Shown here: positions 11,712 through 43,321 of the stretch, piece by piece
How positions within the stretch are numbered: the first letter of the stretch is position 1
Layout: each line of letters opens with the position of its first letter
Origin: Prasinococcaceae sp. CCMP 1430
Lineage: Eukaryota > Prasinodermophyta > Palmophyllophyceae > Prasinococcales > Prasinococcaceae
Length of the DNA stretch: 64,000 nucleotides
Assembly: GCA_013416795.1 (NCBI GenBank)
Contig: RQSC01000001.1
Span: 160,781 to 224,780 of the forward strand
Reading direction: 5' to 3'
Notes under the pieces: generated by a model
Told to the model about the DNA's origin: nothing
Databases searched by the model: none
Seen by the model: the letters and a program-made list of their open reading frames with translations, nothing else
Made by a program: the position numbers and the translations under genes

Positions 11712-11818
11712 GTCACGGTGCCCGAGTGGTTAAGGGGACGGTCTTGAAATTCGGCCCGGGTCGAAATGCACGCAAACCGTTGGCTTCGGCCGCGCGAGTT
11801 CAAATCTCGTCCGTGACG
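11712..11818 (+). tRNA. tRNA-Ser(UGA) with a 26-nt anticodon-loop intron
   Basis: A complete class II tRNA. The acceptor stem GTCACGG (11712-11718) pairs with CCGTGAC (11811-11817), discriminator G at 11818. The D arm reads CCGAGTGGTTAAGGGG. The anticodon stem ACGGT (11738-11742) pairs with ACCGT (11776-11780), loop CT-TGA-A..A, anticodon TGA at 11745-11747. An intron of about 26 nt (11749-11774) sits one base 3' of the anticodon, the canonical position for nuclear tRNA introns. A long variable arm (TGGCTTCGGCC) and T arm GCGAGTTCAAATCTCGT (B box) follow. No CCA is encoded, as expected for a nuclear gene. Confidence 0.95.
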
Positions 11819-15345: not shown

Positions 15346-15705
15346 GGAGGAGCGCTTTCACGGACGAAATTGCGTTCCGCATGGCGCAGGCCATGCTCGA
15401 GCTGCGACCGCGTCCCACTGCCTTCCTCGCCGGGTCCATGATGACGGCTCTCGGTATCTTCCGTGCCATCCGCCAGGCTGGGCTGACTCTGGGTCGGGAA
15501 GTGTCGATGATCGCACATGACGACGTCTTCCCCTACCTGAACGCCGACAACATGTATCCGTCCATGTCCACGACGCGCTCCTCGATCCGCCAGGCCGGCG
15601 CGCGCATCGCTGGGTCGCGCGCGGGCGGCGCAGGCGGCACCGCGACTGTTCTCGACGCGGGGCTCGCCGAGGTGAGGGCGCGGCTTGCGAACCATGCGCG
15701 CAGCT
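15346..15705 (+). pseudogene. LacI/PurR-type ligand-binding domain fragment (bacterial-like)
   Basis: About 110 codons in one frame resemble the C-terminal lobe of bacterial LacI-family repressors. The run FTDEIAFRMAQAMLE - RPRPTAFLAGSMMTALGIFRAIR - AGLTLGREVSMIAHDDV - PSMSTTRSSIRQAGARIA has the family order: the RPTA strand, the xALGxxRAxxxAG helix, the VSxIxxDD strand, and the TTxxSSIRxAGxRIA helix. The DNA-binding helix-turn-helix and the N-terminal lobe are missing, and no in-frame ATG precedes the match. The frame closes at about 15153 upstream. Most likely a decayed horizontally acquired fragment, but it can also be spliced in silico onto the following SGNH hydrolase (exons 15287-15316, 15390-15671, 15760 onward, all phase 0). 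LacI proteins are not expected in eukaryotes. Confidence 0.6.
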
Positions 15706-17280
15706 GTGCGGGGGGAGGGAGGATGGGCGCTGACGCTGAACCATCCATTGGTCCCTCAGGAGGGCCGCCTCGCTGGCGGCGTAAACCTGCACGCACTCCG
15801 AGACGCGCCGCGAGCGTCGGTCGACAACATCATGGCGCGCCGCAGCGGCCTGCCGCGATTCGCGCGCCTGCTCGACGGGTGGCGCTCAAAGCACGGACGC
15901 AAGCCGCGAGTGTGCTACTGCGGCGGCTCCATCACCGCGCAGCGCTCCGGATGGCGGCCGCGCGTGCACGCGTGGCTCAGCCACGAGCACCGGCCAAGTC
16001 AGGAAGCGGGGGACATGACCATGATCAACACATCGGTTGGCAACGTGGGATCGAAGGTGATGGCATTCCTCACGGACGAGTGGATGACCGAGCACTCCCC
16101 CGATGTGGTCTTCATCGAGACTGTGGTGAACGATGGTGACTCGCTGCTCGAGGACGGCGAGCCCGAGGCGGTGCGGCGCGCGCTCGAGGGGGTCGTGCGC
16201 AGGCTCCGCACCAAGCTTCCCGAGGTTGAGATCGTGTTCGTGTACATGCTGCTGCGCGACGACATCCCCGCGCAAAGGCGCACGGGCACCAAGGCGTGGG
16301 CCGACGGGTGCGTTCGTGGCGCGGCAGCGGTGTATCACCGCGATGCGGTCGCCATCCACGACGCTGTTGCGGACCACTACGGGTGCCCGTCGATCAGCCT
16401 CATAAAGGCGCTACGCGGCGTGGCAAGCGGCACGCTAGACCGGCTCTTTCGCGATGACTGCCACCACAGCGGCGCCGGCGCCGCGCTGGTGTCGTGCGTG
16501 GTAGGTCGCTGCCTGCAGAGCATGCTCGGGAGCGCTCGCTCGCAGCTTGAGCCTCCGCTGCCATCAGTGCCGCCGCCGCTCGATGCGAGGCTATGGAGCG
16601 GCGGAAGCGCGCTGCGCTTGGCGGAGGCGCAAGTGGCGTTTGCGGCGGGCCGACGGGAGGCCCACCACACGCGACGAGACCGGGACCCCATCACGGGCAA
16701 GTCGGACGAGTGGTGGCTGCTCTCGCCCGGCGACGTTCTCACGCTGCACTTCTCCGGCAACGCCATCGGGGTGCTCACGCACCTCGGCCCGGACGCTGGC
16801 GTCGTCGAGGGCGAGATCGTGCTCGAGAATGGCGGAACCGTGCCCGTGCGCCGCAACCTCTTTGACTGTTGGTGCTACTATTATCGTCTCGGCGTGATCA
16901 TCCTCGCCGAGGGCCTGCCACCGGGCTCGCACATGCTCAGAGCGTGGCTGTCACCATCGCCGCCGGACCGGAGCGTGCTCAAGCGCCCACTGCCGCGCGG
17001 GGGCGGGGCGGTGCAGGGCGAGCTCAAGCTCTGGATCTCGTACTACCTGGTCATGGCCGCCTCGTGGGTGGACTCGAGCCGCACCATCGCCGCCTTCCCC
17101 AGCAACGACGCCAGCAGTAGCGCGAGCGTGAACGCGGGGAGCGGCCGCTTCGGTGCCGACGAAAAGGTCGAGCTCGTGGCCCCGCCGCGACACGAGGACG
17201 ATAGCGGTGCGCGCCCGCGGCCGTCGCGAGCGCAATGCCTGGAAGACATCGACGAAGACTCCGCCGATGAAACTACCTAG
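15694..17280 (+). CDS. SGNH/GDSL-type hydrolase, bacterial-like
   Basis: Predicted secreted or cytosolic esterase/lipase/carbohydrate deacetylase with the SGNH fold. Block I is VCYCGGSITAQRSGW (nucleophile Ser in GGSIT), block III is VFIETVVNDGD (Asn in the ND pair), and block V is RDDCHHSGAGAAL (Asp and His of DxxH). GGSIT in place of GDS is typical of bacterial carbohydrate-acting members. A second, beta-rich region of about 200 residues follows (GDVLTLHFSGNAIGVLTHLGPDAG... and YYYRLGVIILAEGLPPGSHMLRAWL), which looks like an appended jelly-roll module. The C terminus is acidic. The start is uncertain: ATG 15694, ATG 15832 (MARRSGLPRF), or an upstream exon joined at 15760 after a CCCTCAG acceptor. 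It converges with QueH at 34 nt. Confidence 0.75.
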   Translation: MRAAVRGEGGWALTLNHPLVPQEGRLAGGVNLHALRDAPRASVDNIMARRSGLPRFARLLDGWRSKHGRKPRVCYCGGSITAQRSGWRPRVHAWLSHEHRPSQEAGDMTMINTSVGNVGSKVMAFLTDEWMTEHSPDVVFIETVVNDGDSLLEDGEPEAVRRALEGVVRRLRTKLPEVEIVFVYMLLRDDIPAQRRTGTKAWADGCVRGAAAVYHRDAVAIHDAVADHYGCPSISLIKALRGVASGTLDRLFRDDCHHSGAGAALVSCVVGRCLQSMLGSARSQLEPPLPSVPPPLDARLWSGGSALRLAEAQVAFAAGRREAHHTRRDRDPITGKSDEWWLLSPGDVLTLHFSGNAIGVLTHLGPDAGVVEGEIVLENGGTVPVRRNLFDCWCYYYRLGVIILAEGLPPGSHMLRAWLSPSPPDRSVLKRPLPRGGGAVQGELKLWISYYLVMAASWVDSSRTIAAFPSNDASSSASVNAGSGRFGADEKVELVAPPRHEDDSGARPRPSRAQCLEDIDEDSADETT

Positions 17281-17314: not shown

Positions 17315-18574
17315 TCACCACGTCGGTACGTTCCGCGCGTCGAGCCTCTGGTGAAACTGTTCCCTCGCCCGCTCATTGAGCAAGCCCCCGCCGGCTGCAT
17401 CGCGGAAGAAGGCGTCGACCACCTCCTGGCTTTCCTCGGCGGCGTCCGCCTCGGCGTCCTCGAAGTAGCGCGTGCCCACGCCCGCCGTCTCGCCGCCGAT
17501 GCGCACGGGCGGCAGGCCCTCGCGCGCGCGATGCGCATTGGAGTCGCGCAGGCTGTGCACGCAGCCGCAGTACTCTTGTTTGTAGAAGCGCTGCTCGGCG
17601 CTGATTTCGTACTTGCGCAAGGTCATCGCATCCGTCTGCCAGTCGTAGAGCCAGTAGACGGGCGGCGGGCGCGCGTCGCCGCGCGCCTCGGCCGCCTCGG
17701 CGAAACGCGCGGCGGCGCGCACGCCCGCCTCGTCGACCTGCGCCGCCGACTTCCAGCGGCTCGTCGCGTTGGTCGTCGCCACCGCGCCGAAGCCATGGCG
17801 CGCTGCGTACTGGATCGTGCGCTCCATGCGCATGTCGAAGCACATCGAGCACCTTGCTCCACGCTCAGGGTCGAGCTCCATCCCCTCGGCGCGCGCGTGC
17901 CACTCAGCCGTGTCGTAGTCCGCGTCGACGAAGTCGATTCCCAACTCTGCAGCGTAGCGTTTGTTCTCCTCCTTGCGGATGACGTACTCGCGCCGCGGAT
18001 GGATGTTGGGGTTGTAGAAGAAGATGGTCACGTCTATGCCCTTGTCTTGCATCTCGCCGATCATCGCGCCACTATAGGTGCGCGTCGGCGCGAGAATGCC
18101 GAGCGCGCAGGGGCGAAGAGGGGGGTGGGGGGCGCGTCAGAGGTCGCGGGCGTCCGCGAGCGCGTTGCGCATGCGTGCAAGCTCAGGTGCTTTGCTCAGA
18201 GCTACCAACGCGCGCCGCAGCGCGGCACGGTTGGCGCCGGCAACTCGTACCTGCATGGCGCGCAGCACGAGTGCAGCAGCACGCGCTGCGCGGCACCGCA
18301 GCGCGTCGGCGCGCGGCGCAGTGGGCGGCGTCAGCACAACGAGGCTGTGCAACGAGGCGCGTTCCGGCCCTCGACGCCGCAAGCTCTACCCCACGCACAC
18401 CAAGCGTACCTTCACCCCCTCGGGCGGCTCCTCGCCCGAGTGGCAGCCACGCGGCACCGGGCCGCCAGCCGCTTCCGCAGCGCGGCGCTCGCAGGCTGTG
18501 CTGTCGTCGTACGCGATGCGAAGTGGCCCAGCTGGGATGCCGCCGCCCATGCGCCGCGGCACCCCAAGGCTCAT
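17315..18574 (-). CDS. queH: Epoxyqueuosine reductase QueH, three exons
   Basis: Predicted to catalyse the last step of queuosine synthesis in tRNA (epoxyqueuosine to queuosine) with an Fe-S cluster, independent of cobalamin. Exons in coding order: 18410-18574, 18251-18285 (35 nt) and 17315-18071, 318 aa. Introns: 18286-18409 (GTACGC...GCGCAG, phase 0) and 18072-18250 (GTACGA...CTATAG, phase 2). The microexon encodes RVLLHSCCAPC; exon 3 resumes SGAMIGEM...IDVTIFFYNPNIHPRREY, then ERGARCSMCFDMRM (CxxC), TTNATSRWKS and YKQEYCGCVHSLRDS. The four cysteine motifs and the NPNIHP loop are the full QueH signature. Start at ATG 18574 (or 18550). De novo queuosine synthesis is regarded as bacterial; eukaryotes usually salvage queuine, so acquisition by transfer or plastid use is inferred. 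Confidence 0.9.
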
Positions 18575-18890
18575 ACGCGTGCACGCACACACCAGGCGCG
18601 GCAAGCGCGGCGGCGGGCGCGCCGCGCGCGCCGCGCCTCGTGTGGCGACGGCGAATGGGGGCGGCCGCCGGAGCGACTGCAACCAAAAAATAAACAAGTT
18701 TCTCAAGTTTTACACCACCAGCAAGAGCGATTGGTAGACAATGGAAATCAACAGCGTGCGCGTGCGGCGCTCGTCGCTCGTCGCACGTGCACACGCACGC
18801 GCGACATCCCCCGCGGCGCCCCACTCACACAAAACAGCCGCCTGTGCGGCCAGCAACAATGCCGAGCTGACACGGCCCGACGACACCCCC
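18575..18890. other. Intergenic region
   Basis: Upstream of QueH and downstream of the front-end desaturase. Contains AT-rich patches (aaaaaataaacaag near 18685). No gene recognised. Confidence 0.4.
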
Positions 18891-20105
18891 TCACGCCTGG
18901 CCGACCCTGTACAGCAGCTTGAAGTTCTGCTTGATGATGTCAGTCGTGCTCGAGATCCTGTACTCGAGAGTGTCCTGGCCCTCGGCCCACGCCTGCAGGA
19001 GCGGCCTGAGCTTGTGCAGCTTGTACCTGGGCATGGTGGGGAACAAGTGATGCTCCAGCTGGACGTCCATGCCGCCCCAGAGCATGGTCTCCCACCACGG
19101 CCCGCACGCGGCGTCGCGCGTGGAGCGGAACTGCATGTCCACGTACTCGCCGCGGTCGGTCATGATCTCCTCGCTCTGGTGGGTGGCGCTCACGATGGAG
19201 CCGCACAGGAAGCCGCCCAGCAGCACCGAACTAATGGCCACGGGCAGCGGCAGGCAGCCGAACAGCCAGATGTACTGCAGCGCCAGCGCGGCGAGCTCGC
19301 CCTTGTCCTTCCTGTTCCACGCGAAGATGACGGAATCCAGGCGCCACATGAGGAAGGTGACCGAGTAGAGGGGGTACCCGTAGATGTGCTGAAAGCGGCG
19401 CAGCGGGTTTGGGTCCGGCCGGCCCGTCTCCTTGGGGCTCTGCAGGTACAGGAAGGGCTCACTCATTATGTCGTCGTCGCAGCCGTCCACGTTGGTGAAC
19501 GAGTGGTGCATGTTGTGCTTGTAGCTCCACCACTCGCCCGAGAAGCCGTTGGTGAGCGCCCCGAAGTTGCGCATGGCCGTGCACCACTTTCCGCGCCCGT
19601 GCACGTAGTCGTGCGCCAGCCAGCCCGCCTGCTCCATGCCCACGCCCAGCAGGCACGCGGCCAACACGGGGTGGCCCGCGTTGGCGGCGAGCTGCCCGCC
19701 CACGTACAGCGCGAGCGTGCGAACGAGTATCTGCGCCTCCTGCCACCACACCCGCTCGAACCAGCCGTCCTTCTCGAGCTTCTCGCGGAACTCGGCGAAG
19801 TCCTTGCACGCCCTGGCGGTCTCGGCGTCCGGCAGGAATTGCCGCTCGGCGGCGGGCGGGTCGCACTTGGGCAGCTTGGCGAGGCGCCGCACGGCCTCGT
19901 CGGCGCCGTTGGCGCCGTTGGAGTGCAGCGCGTAGAAGACGCTCGTGGCGTCGCGCCCGTTCATGAGCTTGATGAACATGGCTCCGCCCGGATGCGCCTT
20001 CGCCCAGCCGCTGACGTCGTACCACTGCCCGTCGATGCGCATGGTGAGCGTGGACGTGTCGCCCAGGTCGACCTTGGGCGCCCCGATGCCGACGACGCTG
20101 ATCAT
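18891..20105 (-). CDS. Front-end fatty acyl desaturase with fused cytochrome b5 domain
   Basis: Membrane desaturase that inserts a double bond between an existing one and the carboxyl end, using its own cytochrome b5 domain. Heme-binding HPGG lies in DVSGWAKAHPGGAMF (about residue 37-40 from ATG 20105). Three histidine boxes follow: HDYVH, HNMHH and QLEHH, the last with the Q that marks front-end enzymes. The segments between are hydrophobic, fitting the usual four TM helices. SGEWWSYKHNMHHSFTNV and EHHLFPTMPRYKL are characteristic. Regioselectivity (delta-4/5/6/8) cannot be read from sequence alone. The reading frame stays open 5' of 20105 with an Arg/Ala-rich stretch (to about 20258) but no ATG, so an N-terminal (plastid?) leader encoded partly on another exon is likely; an acceptor GCGCAG sits just before GAGCCCGACG. 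Confidence 0.92.
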   Translation of the reverse strand: MISVVGIGAPKVDLGDTSTLTMRIDGQWYDVSGWAKAHPGGAMFIKLMNGRDATSVFYALHSNGANGADEAVRRLAKLPKCDPPAAERQFLPDAETARACKDFAEFREKLEKDGWFERVWWQEAQILVRTLALYVGGQLAANAGHPVLAACLLGVGMEQAGWLAHDYVHGRGKWCTAMRNFGALTNGFSGEWWSYKHNMHHSFTNVDGCDDDIMSEPFLYLQSPKETGRPDPNPLRRFQHIYGYPLYSVTFLMWRLDSVIFAWNRKDKGELAALALQYIWLFGCLPLPVAISSVLLGGFLCGSIVSATHQSEEIMTDRGEYVDMQFRSTRDAACGPWWETMLWGGMDVQLEHHLFPTMPRYKLHKLRPLLQAWAEGQDTLEYRISSTTDIIKQNFKLLYRVGQA

Positions 20106-20769
20106 CTCGGCCGCGTCGGGCTCCTGCGCGGGCGCCGCCACGGCCGCCACCCGCCGCCCGCGCGCCCCACCCGGCCTGCGCGCGGCCACGCGCGCGCCGC
20201 GCTGCGCGCGGACGCGCGCGGGCCACAAGCGCGAGGATCGCGTTGCGAATTGCGCCTTTTAGGTTTATTTTCAAAAGGGTCTGTTATGCACAGCTTCGCG
20301 CATGCGCTGCGATGGAGCGCCCCGCGGGACCACGCGCCCGCCTGGAAATCGGCCGGCCGGCGTTCGAGTTTGGGTTTCGCCGCGCGCGCGCACTGAGTGG
20401 CTGCGCCGAAAAACGCGATCCAAAGCGGCCCGGCGGCCCGGCGCCCACAACTAATCGCACGCGGCTGAACTACCCACGGGAGAGCATTTCGATGCTCGAA
20501 ACGGGTGCGACCGCGGGACCGCGGCCCCGCCCTGAGCGGCGCGGCGCGTGCGTGGATTGGGTTAGGGTCGCGCATTCGATGCCTTCAAAACAACGCAATG
20601 ATCGCATGGGCGATTGTTGGGGTTTGTACGAGACAAACTGTGCATTGATATTATATTAGGGTTTGCAATTTGCCCGCCGGCACAGCGCGTGGCGCCGGCG
20701 CGCATGGCGTGACTGGGCGCAGGCGGGTGCGCAGGCTCGGCGCTGCGGCTTTGGGAGGGCTCCGCCTTG
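20106..20769. other. Intergenic / 5' region of desaturase
   Basis: Probably includes the desaturase leader exon or 5' UTR and its promoter, and the 3' UTR of the Nudix gene. AT content rises between 20560 and 20670 (tgatattatattagggtttg). No further gene supported. Confidence 0.4.
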
Positions 20770-40585: not shown

Positions 40586-42318
40586 GCCATCTCTTGATCC
40601 GTCTCGAGCGGCAGCGGCCACCGCCGCTGCCGAGAGCGCGCGTCCGCATGTGTACTCCCACCTGCCGCGCCGTGCGGCGCCGTGTAATTATTTGATATTT
40701 TGGGTGCCTCGCCCACGCGCAGGGCGAGCGCGCGCCTCGCGCGTGTGTGGGCATCGCACGCACACGCGGGGACGAGTGAGGCGCAGATCATACCCACCGC
40801 GTCGCGCGCAGTCGCGCGGCTGGTGGCGGCACGGTTGAGGCGGGCTGTGCCTGCGAGGGCCGCCGCGAGGGAAGGGGGAAAACGAAATTATGTAGACCCT
40901 CCATAGTTTTGGAACCTCAAATATCGATGGCACACACAGTTGAGGTTTGCACCCACGAGATCGAAGGACGAGGGACCGACTGATCGAGCCACGCAATGGT
41001 CTCGCGCGTGCGGCGCGAGCGCGCCCCTCCACCGAGGGACCGAGGCCTGCCTCCGTTCCGCCAGTCGCCGGCGCGGGCCGGGCCGGGAGCGTTGCCGCTC
41101 GCAGCTCGGCCCCTGGCTGGCTAGCTGGCGAGAGGGGTTTCTTCGCCAGCGAGGGCTCCCCCGTCTCGGGGCCGCCTTGCTCCTTCCTCCGTTCTGCCCG
41201 CAGGCACAGCTGCGCCAGCTGGTCCTATCGAGGGTCCGGTAAAAACACGTTGCCCTGAGCCGCTGTGCCCAGCTCCTGGTTGGCCAGCGGCGGTGGAGCA
41301 GGCTGGGCACCGCGCCCCGGCATGGATGGTGGCGCTGCCCGCCCAGCCAGAGCACGTTTATTGTTCCCTCGTGCGTTTCTCCCTGCCCCGACCGATGCCC
41401 GGGCCGTGCCGCGTCCGCGCGCGCGCCCGCTCCTCGCTCGTCGGCGTCGGTCGGCCGTCCGTCAGCGTCATCCGCCCCTTCGGCGTCGGCGCGTGCGATC
41501 GCGATTGCGCTTATCGGCGCGCGGCGGCCGCGCGAGCGAACTGATGGCGGAGCGGAGCCGAAGATCTTTTGCACGCGCGCGCGCGGCGCCAGATCGCGGG
41601 CCCGCGGCAATCAAAACCAAGGCGGGGGCACCCGGCGCGCGCCGAGGGGGCGCCGCCGCAAGCCCGCGCGGGGGAGGGGGCGCACCGACGCCGCGGCGGG
41701 AACGCACACGTAAACCCAAACCGAACGCGACGCCAAACGGACGGAGGCGCAAAGGGGAAAACCAAAAAGAGCACCAAACGCAAACCCGAAACCCGAATGA
41801 CGGAAGGGAGAGGGCAGGGGGGGCGGCCCACTGGAGCATATCTGCGCGCGCGGGCGAGCGGGCGAGCGCGGGTGAGCGGACAGGGGCAGACGGGTGGGGG
41901 GGGGAAGGGGGGGCAAGGGGGGGGAGGAGGGGGCTGGAAAACGGTGCCACTCCGATAGAATTGAGAGCACACACACGTGCGTCGCGCGCGGGCGCGAGCG
42001 AGCGCGCGAGCGCGCGCGTGAGGGCGAGCGAGCGTGAGGGAGCGAGGGCGAGGAAGGGGGCCGCGTCGCGCGCGCTGGCGCTGTTATCGAACGCGTGCGA
42101 GCGTGTGCCCCCGCAGCGCCGCCGACCACGCAGCGCCGCGGGCGCCGCAATAGCGCCGCTGCCGTAGCCGCTGCCCGCGGCGGCGAGCGTGCCCCCGTTG
42201 CTGTTGGGATGCCGCTTGAAGCGCCTCGAGAGGCCCGCTCGCTGACGCACCGGCCCTGCGCCCTGCTACGCCGCGGGCGCCGCCACTCGCCGCGCCGCCT
42301 CAGCAGCCCTCTGCAGTC
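40586..42318. other. Intergenic region with strong inverted repeats and GA-rich tracts
   Basis: 1.7 kb between DES1 and the LHC gene. Between 41075 and 41310 there are several perfect stems: GAGCG/CGCTC with a TTGC loop (41087-41100), GCTGGCGA/TCGCCAGC (41124-41150), and GTGCCCAG plus CCTG / CAGG plus CTGGGCAC (41265-41310). From 41620 to 42060 there are G-runs and gagcgagcg repeats. No protein family recognised in any frame. May hold a structured non-coding RNA. Confidence 0.4.
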
Positions 42319-43321
42319 ATGTTCGCCGCCAGCACCCGCGTGTCGCGCGTGGCCGCCTCCATGGCGACCAAGAAGGTCCAGAAGAAGAAGGCCAAGGCGA
42401 CGCCCGCCGGCGGCCTGTCGCCCGTCGTTGACGAGGACTACCAGGGCTACGTGTTCGGCCTCTACCCCGAGTGGGGTACGTACCCGGGCTCGGGCGATGA
42501 GGTCCCGGGCATCCCCTTCGAGGAGGCCAAGAACGCCGAGCGGTGCGTGCGCGCGCGCGCGCAGGCGCCGGCGCGGGCGCGTCCGTGGGCATGGACGCGT
42601 CGACGTCCGCACGCGCGGGCGCGAGCGCGAGCGCGTCCACAGGCGCGGGCGAGCCCGCGCGATGCGCTGCAATCGGCGCTGGGCGCGGAATCGGATAGTG
42701 CGCCCGAACGCCCTCAACGGCCCCGTGCGCGTGGGAGCGCGCAACGCGTCGCTGACTCCAGCTGCGGCGCACCTCGCACGCGCCCCATCTGCACCCCCTC
42801 CGCCCGCTCGCCTGCCTGCCCCCGTTCACCGCAGCGAGGTGATCCACGGCCGCTTCGCCATGCTGGGCGTGACCGGCGCGTGGGCGCAGGAGAACCTGGG
42901 CGAGGGCCCGTGGTTCGACGCTGGCGCCGCGTGCACGCCGTCGGCGTGCGAGATCAACTACCTCGGCCAGGAGGCGTTCGGCAACACGCCCAACGCGTTC
43001 GCGATCATTGTCGTCGTCGAGATTCTCACCTTCGGCTACGCCGAGGCTCTGCGCACGGGCGTGGTGGACTCTGCCTTCCCGGAGCTCACCCAGGGCGACG
43101 CGTACCCTGGCGGCCGCTTCGACCCCCTCAACCAGCTGGGGATGGACAACCTGGAGGAGCTCAAGCTCAAGGAGCTCAAGCACTGCCGCCTGGCCATGTT
43201 CGCGTGGCTCGGCCTCATCGCGCAGGCCGCCGCCACCAAGCAGGGCCCGATCGCCAACTGGTCGGCGCACGTCTCGGACCCCGCTGCCGTCAACATCGTC
43301 AGCGTCTTCCAGAACCGCTAA
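42319..43321 (+). CDS. Light-harvesting chlorophyll-binding protein (LHC/FCP superfamily), two exons
   Basis: Thylakoid antenna protein, 236 aa. Exons 42319-42542 and 42835-43321; intron 42543-42834 (GTGCGT...CCGCAG, phase 2) splits the Arg codon of NAER-SEVIHGRFAML, giving NAERSE... The first chlorophyll-binding helix is EVIHGRFAMLGVTGAWAQE (ExxHxRxAM) and the third is ELKLKELKHCRLAMFAWLGLIAQ (ExxxxRxAM pattern). The middle helix is NAFAIIVVVEILTFGYAEALR. FDPLN precedes helix 3 as usual. The N-terminal about 30 residues (MFAASTRVSRVAAS...KKVQKKKAKA) form a short transit peptide; no clear ER signal sequence is seen. Subgroup (Lhcf, Lhcr, Lhca-like) not assigned. Confidence 0.92.

Follow-up and report, generated by a model that had tools for sequence, protein, structure and literature searches.

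The 64,000-nucleotide stretch of contig RQSC01000001.1 from Prasinococcaceae sp. CCMP 1430 that we analyzed (the window) carries, on the minus strand at 18574-17315, a gene for a protein of the QueH family. The gene has three exons and a spliced product of 318 aa. Its features, in the order of reading, are given below.

18575..18676, minus strand: possible further coding sequence, unproven; 34 codons that precede the modelled ATG in the same frame, rich in Arg and lacking acidic residues
18410..18574, minus strand: exon 1, codons 1-55, from ATG to AAG followed by gtacgc; ends PPEGVK
18286..18409, minus strand: intron 1, 124 nt, gtacgc...gcgcag, GT-AG, phase 0
18251..18285, minus strand: microexon, 35 nt, encoding RVLLHSCCAPC and carrying the first two bases of the Ser codon that follows
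18267-18253, minus strand: CCAPC within the microexon, residues 62-66 of the spliced protein
18072..18250, minus strand: intron 2, 179 nt, gtacga...ctatag, GT-AG, phase 2
17315..18071, minus strand: exon 3, with the remaining catalytic domain, the C-terminal extension and the stop; 152.6 bits to PF02677
17840..17854, minus strand: RCSMC, second cysteine motif, residues 140-144 of the spliced protein
17561..17572, minus strand: YCGC, third cysteine motif, residues 234-237 of the spliced protein
17318..17560, minus strand: the 81 residues after YCGC, comprising the end of the bacterial-type core and then the eukaryotic extension with AEESQEVVDAFF, ending Pro-Thr-Trp

Upstream on the same strand lies a cytochrome b5/fatty-acid desaturase gene (18891-20258, minus). 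A GDSL-type lipase/hydrolase open frame on the opposite strand (15676-17280, plus) ends 34 bases from the QueH stop codon. The window also holds a chlorophyll a/b-binding domain in a 427-aa open frame (42038-43321, plus) and an Rfam tRNA (11712-11818, plus) that is long enough, at 107 nt, to suggest an intron; no tRNA was called there by ARAGORN run in bacterial mode.

How well is this gene model founded? We tried combinations of GT and AG sites in the interval 18470-18040, requiring each intron to measure 40 nt or more. Twenty of the three-exon models obtained are open and contain HSCCAPC, and every one of these uses the acceptor at 18285. The conserved CAPCSGAM is produced by five of them, which share donor 18251 and acceptor 18071 and have five different first donors. 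We chose the donor at 18410 among the five by homology to P0099 of Chaetoceros debilis, which has identical letters at the exon 1/microexon junction PPEGVKRVLLHSCC (PPEGVK followed by RVLLHSCC). All 18 aligned rows, the window protein among them, agree in the Ser whose codon is interrupted by intron 2 and in the surrounding LLHSCCAPC-S-GAM. Seven open single-intron models were also found, and these lose CCAPC. The three-exon model is supported by homology, its exact start being less sure than the rest: translation could begin at the ATG at 18574, at the alternative ATG at 18550, or in a further 5' exon. The initial annotation had placed the catalytic cysteine motif on a 35-nt microexon, and the coordinates, the splice signals and the match of both junctions to homologues bear this out. 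Its reading of two GT-AG introns with matching phases also stands, the frame being kept across both.

The same annotation proposed that regulated inclusion of the microexon could switch the enzyme on and off. The 35 nt are not a multiple of three, they hold CCAPC, and skipping them (18410 joined to 18071) leaves an exon 3 frame that stops after 55 codons (ORF 17904-18071). However, short exons often break the frame when skipped, and nothing beyond the length and the early stop lies behind the idea. We consider such a switch very unlikely.

The relatives of the window protein

The spliced protein matches PF02677 with 182.4 bits (cut-off, 23.5) over profile positions 1-174 of 175, against 153.1 bits for the exon-3 frame alone, a difference from which we conclude that the QueH match is not due to chance. 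It contains the three cysteine motifs expected of QueH (CC-A-P-C/D, RC-x-x-C, and YCGC), in the forms CCAPC, RCSMC, and YCGC that had been read from the spliced sequence at the outset. Across the 18 aligned rows these motifs do not vary, and neither does much of the core. No NCBIfam family was returned for the spliced protein at E <= 0.001; a profile search matched the Thermotoga QueH structures with E values of 8e-25 to 5e-23. The AlphaFold model of a relative, P0017 (mean pLDDT, 80.6), superposes on 7lc5 at 1.7 Å, with a TM-score by target of 0.90. The fold of T. maritima QueH is thereby predicted for this relative rather than for the window protein itself. In bacteria, QueH carries out the final step of queuosine formation in tRNA. 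From its family, the window QueH is predicted to reduce epoxyqueuosine in tRNA and to contain an iron-sulfur cluster.

Our protein search, over about 5.8 billion proteins, found 5615 relatives among 7995 scored candidates, of which the best 120 were listed. Twenty-four of these 120 are named for a eukaryote or derive from transcriptome or genome collections of eukaryotes. They include oomycetes (Aphanomyces, Saprolegnia, and Thraustotheca), diatoms (Thalassiosira, Skeletonema, Seminavis, Chaetoceros, and a Bacillariaceae MAG), a dinoflagellate (Polarella), and unnamed other eukaryotes. The other 96 lack a eukaryote tag and are called eukaryotic-type by their sequence and tail only. Several eukaryotic entries of UniRef are already named epoxyqueuosine reductase. 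A near-identical environmental protein, P0001, differs by one residue, by eye, and is intact over most of exon 3. For comparison with bacteria we took the best 80 of 580 matches obtained when genome contigs were scanned with an alignment as the query; a scan of genome contigs with the single query P0004 gave no relatives. A viral scan gave 132 loci, the best 80 of which are all 53-56% identical to the query.

A first tree of 76 rows was built from the window protein, 34 chosen eukaryotic-type rows and 41 of the best 80 bacterial loci. The eukaryotic-type proteins form one side of a branch with support of 100/99, and the window protein pairs with the environmental P0002, to which it is 83% identical over the tree columns. 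When the tail was removed and all of the best 80 bacterial loci were included, the eukaryotic-type proteins still formed one side (SH-aLRT, 100) in a tree made by a quick method, with six long branches flagged. Judged by sequence, the window protein belongs to one little-described eukaryotic branch of the QueH family.

Could the gene be a bacterial contaminant or a mis-assembled insert? An identity of 46-55% to the nearest bacterial loci (best 80 of 580) would speak for this, but the gene has two introns and a eukaryotic-type extension, it falls in the eukaryotic branch, and the window also holds the cytochrome b5/fatty-acid desaturase and chlorophyll-binding protein genes. Because of the tree and the introns, we regard contamination as refuted. 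The phylogeny against bacteria, which had been set as the test of this point, groups the window protein with eukaryotes. The first claim of the initial annotation, a spliced QueH in a nuclear genome, is thus confirmed by the introns and the eukaryotic branch, for a gene that is apparently intact and in a photosynthetic eukaryote. The finding is less exceptional than it was made out to be there, since QueH occurs in several protist groups.

We also considered a chlamydial origin of eukaryotic QueH. None of the other bacterial loci (best 80 of 580) has a tail as long as that of the QueH of Simkania sp. (L090). This tail includes a eukaryotic-like DESEEAVTNFF stretch, and the protein adjoins the eukaryotic rows when the tail columns are kept in the tree (99/81). 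In the tree without the tail, no well-supported set containing it is smaller than one of 35 eukaryotic and 12 bacterial rows, and the Simkania branch is among those flagged for their length. Matches were found in 5 of the 232 genomes of Simkania's phylum, and among those five the long tail occurs in Simkania alone. Its queA and queH lie side by side (genome G001, C71:11785-13588), and its QueA has the second lowest score of 12 other QueA proteins against each of two eukaryotic-type QueA. By hit lists rather than by a tree, eukaryotic-type QueA looks nearest to Bacteroidota. We do not claim a chlamydial origin.

The C-terminal tryptophan and the cellular site

In the nearest bacterial QueH proteins (best 80 of 580), YCGC is followed by 28-59 residues (median, 33), and none of the 80 ends in Trp or Phe. 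The corresponding length is 72-114 residues (median, 94) in 126 Trp-ending eukaryotic-type proteins, and 81 in the window protein. Of 130 QueH and fusion proteins, 128 contain the pattern EE..V..FF. The terminal Trp occurs in 118 of the best 120 hits of 5615, the exceptions being P0049 and P0110. Among 127 Trp-ending proteins (hits and fusions together), 123 close with Asn-Trp and 4 with Thr-Trp; Asn-Asn-Trp is the end of 117. The window protein ends Pro-Thr-Trp, as does its nearest relative P0002, instead of the Asn-Asn-Trp of the QueH of oomycetes, diatoms, and dinoflagellates. In the P0017 model the block of the last 13 residues has a pLDDT of 53, which is consistent with a loose tail, notwithstanding a short helix drawn at 288-291.

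What could this tail do? A C-terminal Trp has been described, in the accessible part of one study, as a hallmark of cytosolic rather than organellar Fe-S proteins: neither Trp nor Phe terminates any of 164 Fe-S proteins of mitochondria or plastids, and of 248 bacterial and archaeal ones two end in Trp and ten in Phe (PMC10623007). Most of the binding comes from the Trp with its carboxylate, and the penultimate position tolerated Ala, Val, Leu, and, less well, Lys, according to the accessible part of a second study (PMC13082141). CIA clients with a TCR motif end in [LIM]-[DES]-[WF], and of this the window protein has the C-terminal Trp or Phe. Neither its Pro-Thr-Trp nor the Asn-Asn-Trp ends fit the consensus [LIM]-[DES]-[WF], and we do not file it as a TCR client because it lacks [LIM] at -2 and [DES] at -1. 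The Asn at -1 of the relatives also varies far less than one would expect of a tolerant position. Still, the conservation of the C-terminal Trp suggests that it helps to recruit the cytosolic Fe-S machinery (CIA), and the Asn-Trp tail may work like a CIA signal.

The N-termini bear on the same question. We called an N-terminus presequence-like if its first 25 residues held no acidic and at least three basic residues. Ten of the 130 QueH and fusion proteins fit this rule, and judged by this end of the protein some relatives look mitochondrial. Nine of the ten nevertheless end in Asn-Trp, and the Trp is therefore no marker of a cytosolic location. The modelled N-terminus of the window protein departs from the rule only through two Asp at 23-24. 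The 34 Arg-rich codons ahead of it, which follow an acceptor-like AG (18678-18677), may encode a portion of a targeting peptide. The window protein is probably cytosolic, with the upstream Arg-rich stretch leaving organelle targeting possible.

Queuosine genes in the assembly and the source of the substrate

Eukaryotes are, to our knowledge, described as strictly dependent on queuine salvage. Which partners does this alga have? The assembly measures 24.5 Mb in 145 contigs, its completeness is not established, and partner genes were sought in it by six-frame searches. Its 22 matches to the chlorophyll a/b-binding family indicate a photosynthetic organism. The assembly has a complete queuine salvage set, QTRT1, QTRT2, and QNG1. 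QTRT1 (contig C79) has its best PDB matches to catalytic subunit 1, with 380 bits against 256 for the top match called simply queuine tRNA-ribosyltransferase, and the PDB matches of QTRT2 (C8) are accessory subunit 2; these are the only two TGT loci found. QTRT1 also passes the NCBIfam cut-off for bacterial Tgt (350 versus 306.75 bits), and a bacterial-like TGT role is formally conceivable for it, the assignment being by matches rather than by a TGT tree. QNG1 occurs on C72 (L005) and C84 (L006) in copies 99.96% identical over 2568 bases, which represent a recent duplication or unmerged haplotypes.

The initial annotation had envisaged queuosine synthesis in this alga, a claim that the assembly does not sustain: it has QTRT1, QTRT2, and QNG1, and six-frame searches of it with Pfam models found no QueF, QueC, QueG, or YhhQ and no QueA candidate. 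The five models gave matches in 7 to 12 of 14 control genomes, all prokaryotic (9 of 14 for QueA). An environmental QueA protein, P0122, found no QueA in the assembly either, as a protein query run without a control, whose empty outcome proves nothing by itself. QueH is the one member of the de novo pathway found, with QueC, QueF, and QueA not found and QueD and QueE outside the search. The alga seems, from its sequence, to keep QueH without QueA, the enzyme that ordinarily supplies its substrate.

We tentatively propose, at somewhat less than even chances, that in this alga the eukaryotic-type QueH reduces salvaged epoxyqueuosine to queuosine, acting downstream of salvage in the cytosol. As an iron-sulfur enzyme that needs no B12, QueH would act on the wobble base of tRNAs with GUN anticodons and reduce the epoxide of epoxyqueuosine there, to give queuosine. 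If QueA is truly absent, the alga would have to obtain the substrate from its surroundings or from ingested bacteria. Salvaged queuosine or epoxyqueuosine nucleotides would have their base released by QNG1. The transglycosylase QTRT1/QTRT2 would then insert this base, in the epoxy form too, into tRNA, where QueH would turn whatever carries the epoxide into queuosine. For this, both the eukaryotic transglycosylase and QNG1 would have to accept the epoxy form. The supply of substrate by salvage, the cytosolic site, and the recruitment of the Fe-S machinery by the Trp are weaker parts of this proposal. It comes close to the epoxyqueuosine repair that had been offered as the alternative to synthesis.

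The main rival supposes that the alga has a QueA that we missed, through a gap in the assembly or because introns break the gene too much for it to be found, and that QueA and QueH make tRNA queuosine from salvaged preQ1, perhaps in an organelle. At least 28 QueA-QueH fusions are among the matches listed, including P0246 of Diacronema lutheri and two, P0258 and P0262, from a eukaryote set; 25 of the 28 end in Asn-Trp, and the QueH halves fall in the eukaryotic branch for the nine that we placed in the tree. Stand-alone QueA occurs in Heterosigma, a pelagophyte, Amorphochlora, and Thalassionema nitzschioides. A presequence-like stretch possibly precedes the window protein, and Chloropicon has a predicted mitochondrial set of bacterial-like TGT, QueA, and QueG, in the accessible part of the study that describes it (PMC12301720). 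Against all this, two queries did not find QueA in the assembly, which also yielded no third TGT locus, no YhhQ, and no QueF. We see this rival as a serious possibility, if a doubtful one. Three further proteins (P0254, P0260, and P0263) fuse QueA to a FolD-type folate enzyme (PF02882; P0254 also has PF00763) and hold a pterin carbinolamine dehydratase (PF01329) as well.

QueH could also be a relic, or could have moved out of queuosine metabolism to another 7-deazaguanine or epoxide. This would agree with the lack of a detected epoxyqueuosine-making enzyme in the genome and with a eukaryotic branch that has its own conserved extension. Yet the cysteine motifs do not vary, nor does much of the core, the fusions with QueA link this branch to epoxyqueuosine, and the near-identical P0001 has kept most of exon 3 intact, so that we judge this explanation improbable.

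A eukaryotic QueH that is spread over several protist groups, in some cases as a fusion with QueA and in this alga apparently lacking QueA, would mean that the last chemical step of queuosine formation runs inside many algae and oomycetes without B12; QueG is B12-dependent. A question arises: is epoxyqueuosine itself a salvaged micronutrient? One could speculate further, against the balance of probability, that a distinct eukaryotic QueH family of single origin lets protists use epoxyqueuosine as a nutrient. QueA-less algae would import precursors in the epoxy form that bacteria release, add them to tRNA by means of the ordinary eukaryotic transglycosylase, and finish the modification independently of B12, and Asn-Trp would be a new variant of the cytosolic Fe-S delivery signal. 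The conserved Asn-Trp tail bears in any case on how Fe-S enzymes of bacterial origin get their clusters in eukaryotes.

Comparison with known systems

No title or abstract opening in our literature listings, some of them partial, concerned eukaryotic QueH. An exception to strict salvage was found in a 2025 study, which proposes a mitochondrial QueA/QueG route for Chloropicon and describes bacterial-type QueA, QueG, and TGT in mitochondria of Chloropicon and red algae (Galdieria); in its main text, "queh" occurs 0 times and a "QueG/H" passage concerns Chlamydia trachomatis (PMC12301720). As far as that text extends, those algae and ours have in common late, bacterial-type steps of queuosine formation, and differ in that Chloropicon and Galdieria use QueG, possess QueA, and are predicted to run the pathway in mitochondria (PMC12301720). 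The QueH halves of the QueA-QueH fusions lie in the same branch as the window protein where tested, whereas the latter is stand-alone in a genome where no QueA was found.

Bacterial QueH, as known from Thermotoga maritima (7lc5, 7lc7, 9d86, 9dco, and 9deu), shares with the window protein the domain and the three cysteine motifs. The window QueH differs from it in its introns, its N-terminal extension, and a longer C terminus ending in Trp. The last residue of its CCAPC is Cys, where Thermotoga QueH reads CCAPD; this Asp is the residue replaced in the D13N mutant (9dco). The QueH proteins of oomycetes, diatoms, and dinoflagellates have both the branch and the extension in common with the window QueH.
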